Shown here one piece after another: positions 13,076 through 14,878 of a stretch of DNA of 20,035 bases. The DNA is from a virus, in the IMG/VR virus record IMGVR_UViG_3300040801_004731, positions 1-20,035 of that record; one strand, 5' to 3'. The first letter of the stretch is position 1. Each line of letters starts with the position of its first letter. The notes under the pieces are model-generated. The model searched no databases. It was not told the origin of the DNA and saw only the letters and a program-made list of their open reading frames with translations. A program made the position numbers and the translations under genes.

Positions 13076-14419
13076 TCAGAGCACTCGCAGGCGGGGTTGA
13101 CGATAGACCGCCGCCGGAGCGATCATCAGTTCGTGCAAGCCCCAGACCAGTGCATCCAGCCGGTCGGGCGACCCCTGACCCTCGTAGCCACGCGGCGTCA
13201 TCAGGCACATCTGTTCTTCAAGGTCGACCAGCCCCCGCACATGGCGCACCCGACCCTGCTCATAGAGCGCGGCTACGGGCTCGGCGCGCGCGGACTTGCC
13301 GCGCGCCGCATGCACGGCCTTGTATGGGACCAGCGGATCGACCTGCCTGATGACCTCCTCGACCAACTGCCCGCCTTGGTTGACCTCGGCCACCAACCGC
13401 TCGGCGCCATGCCGGTCCATTGCCGCGATGGCCGCGCGTGCCCAACCTGTCGGTCCGACACCTCTGACCGTGCAATCCTCCAGCACGAACGCCCGCCAAT
13501 CCTGAGGCGGTCCCTTTGTCTGAGCACCGACCACGACGATCCCGCATTCATCCGATCCGGCACCGGAACTCACCGCAGGGTCGAGCGCAACGATCACCCG
13601 GTCGAGCGACGGCACATGCGCGACTCGCGCAGCCTGCAGCATCTCCGTCGTCCACAAGGCCCCGTCGGCATCCGCCAGAAGAATTCCGTCCAGTTCCTGA
13701 CGCCCCAACCGGGTGCCGGCATAGCGCGCTTTCACCTCCTCGAGAAAACTCGCCGCAAGGTTCGCCCGGTTAGCTTCGGTCGGCGCATGGCTCACGACAG
13801 TCGACGGCAGCTGAAGCAGTTCTTTCAGTAGCCCCACGTTGCGCGGGGTCGTCGTCGCACAGACCTGGGGCAAGTCTCCAAGCCGCAACGCGAATTGCAG
13901 CATGTCCCATGTGTCCCGGGCCCGGTTCCACTTCGCAAGCTCATCCACCCAGGCCGCATCGAATTGTGGTCCTCGCAGCCCTTCCGGGTCTTGCGCCGAA
14001 TAGGCTTTCGCTTCGGCTCCGTTTTCCCAGACAAGCTTGCGTTCGCTCGCCTTCCAGGTGGGGCGCCGATCCGGGGGCGAACAGGCAAGGATGCCGCTGT
14101 CGCCATGGACCATCACGTCTCTGACCTGATCATAGGTCTCGCCGATCAGGGCAACTCTGCTCTTGGGACCGGGATCCAGCGGTCGGGATCCTTCGACCTG
14201 CGCACGCACCCATTCTGCACCGGCCCGGGTCTTGCCCGCACCGCGCCCACCCATGATGACCCATGTCCGCCAGTCGCCTTCGGGCGGCAACTGATGGTCC
14301 ATGGCCCAGAACTCGAAAAGAAAAGGGAGGGCGCAAAGCCCTCCCTCTCCGATGTCATCTAGAAATGTTTCCCTAGTCTCCGCATCTGCGGAGGCGAGCC
14401 AGACGGCACCCGACCTCAT
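13076..14419 (-). CDS. g2: GTA g2 terminase large subunit
   Basis: A packaging motor ATPase-nuclease of 447 residues from the chosen start (rcc01683 type). Walker A is MGGRGAGKTRAG (Gly57-Thr64) and Walker B is FDAAWVDELAKW. ATTTPRN is a coupling motif. The RNase-H-like nuclease has IVALDPAVSSGAGSDECG and a late Asp in DALVWGLHEL. LPFLFEFWAMDHQ opens the family match. The start is uncertain: ATG 14419 (MRSGAVWLAS) lacks a clear ribosome site, while a TTG at 14491 has GGAG 7 bases upstream and adds 24 residues. Either choice overlaps g1 (14373-14699), suggesting coupled synthesis of both terminase subunits. Confidence 0.93.
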   Translation of the reverse strand: MRSGAVWLASADAETRETFLDDIGEGGLCALPFLFEFWAMDHQLPPEGDWRTWVIMGGRGAGKTRAGAEWVRAQVEGSRPLDPGPKSRVALIGETYDQVRDVMVHGDSGILACSPPDRRPTWKASERKLVWENGAEAKAYSAQDPEGLRGPQFDAAWVDELAKWNRARDTWDMLQFALRLGDLPQVCATTTPRNVGLLKELLQLPSTVVSHAPTEANRANLAASFLEEVKARYAGTRLGRQELDGILLADADGALWTTEMLQAARVAHVPSLDRVIVALDPAVSSGAGSDECGIVVVGAQTKGPPQDWRAFVLEDCTVRGVGPTGWARAAIAAMDRHGAERLVAEVNQGGQLVEEVIRQVDPLVPYKAVHAARGKSARAEPVAALYEQGRVRHVRGLVDLEEQMCLMTPRGYEGQGSPDRLDALVWGLHELMIAPAAVYRQPRLRVL

Positions 14420-14699
14420 GTCGGGCGGCGTCGAGGTCGAGGGCGTATCCGCCCCTGACGATGCCAAGTTTTCTGTTTTGCTGCTCCGCAAGGATAATCT
14501 CCGCTCTCTGGCAGGACATGACCAGTCTATCGACCGTCAAGACCCGCTTGCTACCGTCCGCTAAATCCGCATCCTCCCCGGCTTCCAGTTGCTTCCGCAG
14601 GTCTTCCGCCTGCTCCCGCAATCTTGAAAGTGACTCGAGGAGCGACTTGTAAACATCAGCCGATCTCGAAACGCACTCGTCCGGGGTAATCAAAGTCAT
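14373..14699 (-). CDS. g1: GTA g1 small terminase (TerS-like)
   Basis: A 108-residue protein at the first position of the GTA cluster (rcc01682 type), reported in R. capsulatus as a small terminase without the usual DNA-binding domain, which fits non-selective packaging of host DNA. The N-terminal part (about residues 15-45: VYKSLLESLSRLREQAEDL, then RKQLEAGE) looks like a coiled coil, and VDRLVMSCQRAEIILAEQQ is also helical. No helix-turn-helix is apparent. ATG 14699 has no strong ribosome binding site, so it may depend on translation of the upstream leader ORF that ends at 14714. It overlaps g2. Confidence 0.87.
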   Translation of the reverse strand: MTLITPDECVSRSADVYKSLLESLSRLREQAEDLRKQLEAGEDADLADGSKRVLTVDRLVMSCQRAEIILAEQQNRKLGIVRGGYALDLDAARHEVGCRLARLRRCGD

Positions 14700-14713
14700 A
14701 TTTGCTCATTGCC

Positions 14714-14785
14714 TCATGCGTGATCACTCTCCGCACGAAAGACATGAAAAAACGGCCTATGGGATACGATCCCACGGCCGTTCAT
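14714..14785 (-). CDS. Putative 23-residue leader peptide upstream of GTA g1
   Basis: The product begins MNGRGIVSHRPFFHVFR and ends AESDHA. AGGAG sits exactly 6 bases before the ATG, a far better ribosome site than that of g1 itself. The first 13 codons span the terminator-like hairpin (14747-14782), so a ribosome on this ORF would disrupt that stem. The stop lies 14 bases before the g1 ATG, allowing translational coupling. The peptide has 3 His and 3 Phe but no run strong enough to name an amino-acid sensor. That it is translated is an inference from the ribosome site and layout only. Confidence 0.5.
   Translation of the reverse strand: MNGRGIVSHRPFFHVFRAESDHA
14747..14782 (-). terminator. 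Intrinsic-terminator-like hairpin in the GTA leader
   Basis: The minus strand reads AACGGCC, then TGGGAT, loop CGT, ATCCCA, GGCCGTT and a run that makes six T in total, followed by C. The two stems (7 and 6 bp) are separated by a small asymmetric internal loop. The structure lies between the predicted promoter and g1, so it would terminate GTA transcripts, read-through from mltG, or both, unless relieved. Confidence 0.7.
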
Positions 14786-14808
14786 TCACTTCTCCTAGCA
14801 TGACACAA

Positions 14809-14837
14809 CCTATAGACGAGTGCGCTCGCATTGTCAA
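14809..14837 (-). promoter_or_regulatory. Predicted sigma70-type promoter for the GTA cluster
   Basis: TTGACA (14837-14832), a 17-base spacer and TATAGG (14814-14809) on the minus strand, pointing to g1. The start of transcription would be near 14802, about 17 bases before the leader ORF. It is the best promoter-like sequence in the window and lies after the mltG stop. Known GTA promoters in R. capsulatus respond to GafA; I cannot assign a GafA site from sequence. Confidence 0.65.
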
Positions 14838-14878
14838 GCGAATTCGCAACGGCCAGATCCGCTAACCGTTCGGCATCA

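Follow-up and report, generated by a model that had tools for sequence, protein, structure and literature searches.

A conserved leader with a terminator-like hairpin between the main GTA promoter and g1 of Rhodobacteraceae, and its possible role in GafA-dependent antitermination

A cell that produces GTA is killed by it, and only few cells do so; for Rhodobacter, the published account of this control is that GafA, together with the omega subunit, activates the promoter. The locus studied here raises the question of what a hairpin followed by a T run is doing between a promoter and the first gene of a GTA cluster. An earlier note had proposed that it either keeps the cluster shut by default, to be released by antitermination or by ribosome movement on a short leader ORF, or ends read-through from the upstream fab-mltG genes. 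The window, as we call the whole stretch of 20,035 nucleotides that was analysed, comes from a record filed as a virus (20-kb IMG/VR) and is a GTA cluster with chromosomal neighbours, namely a ketoacyl synthase gene, MltG and a histidine biosynthesis gene. The neighbours identified by Pfam are beta-ketoacyl synthase and MltG/YceG upstream of the leader and terminase, portal, protease and capsid downstream of it, and the genome closest to the window is that of Sedimentitalea arenosa (L002), the terminase of which is identical.

All the elements lie on the minus strand. The −35 element TTGACA (14832..14837) and the −10 element TATAGG (14809..14814) were read from the sequence and are conserved in the family, the former column by column, and the 17-nt spacer between them (14815..14831) contains a motif, CGAGCGCAC here and CGNACGGTC in the family consensus, that shows column conservation and is a putative site for the GafA C-terminal domain. 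From the position of the promoter, transcription is predicted to start near 14802-14801, which places the start 102-103 nt before the ATG of g1. The sequence AGGAG (14796-14792) is read within the conserved 5′ leader GCTRGAAGANNTG (14787..14799), which was delimited from held-out leaders and from the pairing of helix A, the final six bases being the 5′ arm of that helix. Hairpin B (14751..14782), defined by folding and covariation, is terminator-like and consists of 14 pairs (one G-U), one bulged A and the loop CGT; its letters are AACGGCC-GTGGGAT-CGT-ATCCCAT-a-GGCCGTT (14782-14751, minus strand), and a T6 tract (14747..14752) is read at its 3′ side. The 3′ arm of helix A, CATGTC (14741..14746), is assigned from covariation and an arm-swap test, and in the window there is one mismatch between it and its partner GAAGTG at 14792-14787. 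Hairpin C (TTCGTGCG / CGCATGAG, 14713..14739), also based on covariation, ends on GAGG, a possible ribosome-binding site of g1. The gene g1 (14373..14699, with the ATG at 14699) precedes the gene for the terminase large subunit and has homologues in relatives, and a Pfam search gave no match for it. The layout claimed in the earlier note, that is, TTGACA-N17-TATAGG, AGGAG and a hairpin with a T run before g1, is read directly in the sequence. Folding of 14802-14730 gives −34.3 kcal/mol with z = −5.9, and 0/200 shuffles were as good. A simple consensus scan flagged neither the promoter nor the terminator, as its rules demand T as the last −10 base and a bulge-free stem; the sequence hallmark of an intrinsic terminator, a GC-rich hairpin of high stability with a U tract immediately behind it, is present in the window on the transcribed strand. 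An out-of-frame ATG, common to several relatives, is located about nine bases before the start of g1 (window 14708, minus strand ATGAGCAAATATGA).

The region preceding g1 was then read in related GTA loci, drawn from 160 loci, and the same order was found to recur: TTGAC, 17 nt, a TA-rich −10 element, CATGCTRGAAGANRTGGGCAA, the hairpin, the T run and CTCGTGCG...CGCATGAGG just before g1. That promoter, hairpin and T run turn up in a constant position throughout the family means that the module is not a product of chance. In an identity profile of the window and 21 relatives, the promoter and leader mostly score 0.7-0.9, falling to 0.42 in the loop of the hairpin, while the upstream intergenic region scores 0.17-0.3 and the body of g1 about 0.5-0.6, and such a profile is what would be expected for a structured RNA. 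RNAalifold, run on a sequence-only alignment of 53 leaders, predicted 16 pairs, 11 of which have changes on both sides. In the same alignment, helix A (GANNTG with CRTNTC), which encloses hairpin B, is paired in 93.9% of the cells and has both-side changes in 4/6 pairs, the corresponding values being 89.9% and 8/12 for hairpin B and 77.4% and 3/8 for hairpin C; the leaders compared are related sequences, so that changes on both sides are not independent events. None of 500 shuffles reached the values observed for the three helices, and pairing dropped from 86.9% to 42-49% when the partners were slid. In the arm-swap test of helix A, 84 of the 129 non-redundant leaders pair perfectly with their own arm, as compared with 45 on average and at most 59 in 2000 swaps. 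The earlier note had named an alignment across relatives, with a test of the stem, as its check, and the hairpin indeed keeps its pairing through compensatory changes. The GCT of the 5′ leader end is found in 57/58 held-out leaders. No family of Rfam 15 matched the window at the gathering score, the sole match being at chance level (E 0.48). The first transcribed bases, GCTRGA at about +3 to +8 (window 14794-14799), are nearly invariant and unpaired; in Q-type systems a promoter-proximal pause element would be expected at this position, but the match of the motif to a −10 element is poor.

The T tract gives the hairpin a direction. A T run of at least four follows hairpin B in 120/136 non-redundant leaders and one of at least five in 103/136, while an A run of at least five is found on the 5′ side of the hairpin in 2/136; the run is thus placed only downstream of the hairpin and points along GTA transcription. 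In the other 16 of the 136 leaders (~12%) the T run has three bases or fewer, and most of them keep recognisable helices, from which it follows that the RNA fold probably has a role beyond termination. Leaders that have lost the T tract and kept the hairpins occur in the Leisingera-type group and related ones (L046, L054, L063, L069, L076, L055 and L081).

The promoter spacer points to the factor that might act here. In the 135 leaders with a 17-nt spacer, where the promoter pair was picked by scoring each leader against TTGACA and −10 consensi, TTGA is invariant and the following C stands at 99%. Single columns of the spacer motif CGNACGGTC reach up to 1.6 bits, a conservation that is unusual for an inert spacer. 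Inverted repeats are in weak excess in the spacer (mean 3.12 vs 2.94 in shuffles), and no match to the Caulobacter palindrome was noticed. GafZ of Caulobacter, which is homologous to the C-terminal half of GafA, is reported to be an antiterminator that loads between −35 and −10, depends on promoter DNA for loading, acts on no target other than the main GTA promoter and carries the polymerase through a terminator that lies behind the first gene; the same study suggests antitermination as a possible function of GafA too (PMC11150451). GafA-C, in turn, is reported to bind an R. capsulatus fragment with the −35, the −10 and the start (PMC9638019), and the R. capsulatus start has been placed within a fragment 76-125 nt upstream of g1, which the distance of 102-103 nt predicted here fits (PMC6363796). 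The reading of the spacer motif as a putative binding site for the GafA C-terminal domain is based on its location, which equals that of the Caulobacter GafZ element, ZBE (PMC11150451), and falls inside the fragment that GafA-C binds in R. capsulatus (PMC9638019). The R. capsulatus locus was sought with the pattern of the published primers, without a match in viral contigs or 395 family genomes. The gafA gene, which was found by synteny with lipA and not by a search with the DnaA C-terminal profile, carries DUF6456 and the published CtrA site TTAAC-N6-GTAAC. Upstream of the −35 element (minus strand, 14860-14874 in the window, and the corresponding region in relatives), the dyad ACCGNNCGGT occurs in 14/136 leaders vs 0.55 expected, and GTTAAC in 44 vs 2.7 expected; the motif CGNACGGT is found in the spacer as well, and all three are possible regulator sites.

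We propose, and consider the chances to be about even, that the leader contains a promoter-proximal terminator that is passed by GafA-dependent antitermination. The GTA promoter would start a short leader, and hairpin B with its T tract would serve as an intrinsic terminator ~50 nt past the start, at which most polymerases would stop by default and let go of a short transcript. Once GafA is present, its C-terminal domain (DUF6456) would bind the promoter spacer and load onto RNA polymerase, and the loaded polymerase would pass the terminator into g1 and the cluster, as happens with lambda Q at tR′. Termination at the hairpin, antitermination by GafA and its loading at the spacer motif are what we infer here. 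Because helix A can form only in the read-through RNA, the longer form of the leader is likely to serve some additional purpose; it might, for example, stabilise the antitermination complex or the message. Several points do not favour the mechanism: a plain terminator does not predict the conservation of helix A, the spacer motif is not clearly palindromic, unlike the Caulobacter element, ~12% of leaders have a T run of three bases or fewer, and some GTA clusters with GafA have no such leader. Of the earlier proposal, a terminator that stands before the first gene and shuts the cluster by default is retained, with release by antitermination, as backed by conservation, covariation, position and the published homologue of GafA; release through attenuation on the leader ORF is dropped. 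It is probable that an RNA checkpoint holds back the GTA genes and has to be overcome before particles are produced. A bolder version, in which the leader is a family-wide cis-acting RNA whose terminator and enclosing helix make up a single checkpoint, stopping polymerase by default and, with GafA present, serving as part of a platform for a GafA-Nus antitermination complex, is put forward only tentatively and seems rather unlikely to us. If this checkpoint exists, it would be a second barrier after promoter activation, confining GTA production to few cells. The conserved terminator-like element right after the promoter gives the suggested antiterminator role of GafA (PMC11150451) a concrete site at which to act.

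The helices might also matter for reasons other than termination. It is possible, if somewhat doubtful, that the main role of the leader is that of a loading site, as RNA (or DNA), like lambda nut or HK022 put, where helices A and B with the GCTRGA 5′ end would recruit or hold a GafA-RNA polymerase-Nus complex that goes on through terminators deeper in the cluster, with the T tract playing a secondary part. Helix A is supported as well as helix B, the helices are kept where the T tract is lost, as in Leisingera-type leaders, and 59 of the 136 hairpins are closed by a GNRA tetraloop; such loops are, however, common in ordinary stable hairpins too, we know of no RNA binding by GafA, and 88% of leaders retain the T run, on the downstream side only. 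The single copy per genome at the main cluster agrees with the single target reported for GafZ, but GafZ loading is also reported to need promoter DNA (PMC11150451). This explanation and the favoured antitermination are compatible with each other. Control of message stability or of g1 translation, in which the extended 5′ stem would protect the long mRNA and hairpin C would cover the ribosome-binding site, is unlikely in our view: helix C does end, with compensatory changes, on the GAGG upstream of g1, and A and B together form an extended 5′ stem, but neither the directional T run nor the conserved promoter spacer is explained.

A promoter and a terminator ~50 nt apart, with a conserved unpaired 5′ end between them, also have the shape of a small-RNA gene, so that the terminated leader might act on other messages and GTA transcription might represent the read-through fraction. 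We regard this as improbable because there is no independent locus, the strong matches preceding the GTA cluster, because the conserved sequence runs past the terminator into helices A and C, and because a paper on the small RNAs of R. pomeroyi (PMC4809877) does not mention the GTA region in its main text. More improbable still is that the hairpin ends fabF-mltG read-through and lies downstream of the GTA promoter by accident. In 87/134 loci mltG is indeed directly upstream on the same strand, but the leader is kept at loci with a distant mltG or none at all and at loci with a divergent upstream gene, and the read-through branch of the earlier proposal loses its footing accordingly. Upstream genes were called as lying on the opposite strand in 17 loci by a heuristic, and the three of these calls that were checked with Pfam were confirmed as divergent, encoding a pyridoxal-dependent decarboxylase (L066) and aminotransferases (L318 and L354). 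We give the least credence to ribosome-mediated attenuation, in which translation of the 23-codon ORF would decide whether the hairpin forms. The ORF, with its ATG start and stop (14714..14785), is present in the window, where AGGAG and the ATG precede the hairpin, but a start codon stands at that place in only 5/136 leaders; the frames from the conserved RTG range from a few codons to fusion with g1, their stops vary without order, and no frame across the hairpin is conserved. The RTG itself is explained by helix A. The conservation expected by the earlier note therefore holds for the stem and not for the ORF, which we judge incidental and reject as an attenuator element.

Several known systems share parts of this arrangement. 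In lambda pR′-tR′ with Q, and with AlpA of Pseudomonas, the terminator is likewise close to the promoter, a late phage-type operon lies behind it and the regulator site, putative in our case, is in the spacer. Lambda tR′ is ~190 nt from the start, unlike the terminator here at ~50 nt, and we know of no enclosing helix at tR′ like the conserved helix A. HK022 put and lambda nut are likewise structured leader RNAs that lie early in a phage-type transcript, but the present leader has its own T tract, and no boxA was identified in it. With ribosome-mediated attenuators the window shares a short ORF overlapping the terminator hairpin; it differs from them in that the ORF is not conserved and no alternative antiterminator hairpin was found. 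The closest parallel is the GafYZ/CcGTA system of Caulobacter crescentus, in which the antiterminator-binding element lies between the −35 and −10 of the main GTA promoter, where the putative site is located here, the regulator is homologous (GafZ being the counterpart of the GafA C-terminal half) and a terminator separates the promoter from the bulk of the cluster (PMC11150451). The Caulobacter terminator, however, consists of three 150-bp repeats 3′ of the first gene, in contrast to the compact hairpin and T tract before g1, and no conserved leader RNA is described there; nor is a similarity of GafZ to Q, Q21 or AlpA reported (PMC11150451). GafA carries DUF6456. In the open-access literature we found no earlier account of such a leader, of a terminator or of a small RNA for the GTA promoter of Rhodobacterales. 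Control by a promoter-proximal terminator is known in itself; its form and place here are, as far as we found, new for these GTA clusters, and the RNA is absent from Rfam 15.

A covariance model built from the leaders, R1, recognised most of 80 genome loci, including several outside the training set. Examination of 30 genomes gave one strong match per genome, and no copy was recognised at their other GTA operons. When 296 evenly drawn Rhodobacteraceae genomes were surveyed with a match threshold of E <= 0.001, the leader was found in 189, nearly always as a single copy, and all the strong matches whose position was checked precede the GTA cluster. GTA terminase and DUF6456 (GafA) were each found in 20/20 of the leader-bearing genomes sampled; in 20 leader-negative genomes, a terminase match (some broken or divergent) was found in 15/20 and DUF6456 in 15/20. 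Leader-negative lineages such as Roseovarius have rewritten leaders. Since some GTA clusters with GafA do without it, the leader is widespread yet dispensable. The covariance model can be used as a marker for the main GTA promoter across Rhodobacteraceae, which aids the finding of operons and start sites. A match in Roseovarius litoreus (L188), considered as a second leader, was rejected, being an ordinary terminator that separates lipA from a gene converging on it. The promoters of gafA (L294, L295, L296, L236, L234 and L235; ~300 nt upstream of gafA) share with the GTA promoter the sequence TAGGTTGTG or near forms of it, just after the −10 element, and also contain a conserved CTGTTTATCNTTTGGAAACAAT upstream of the CtrA site.
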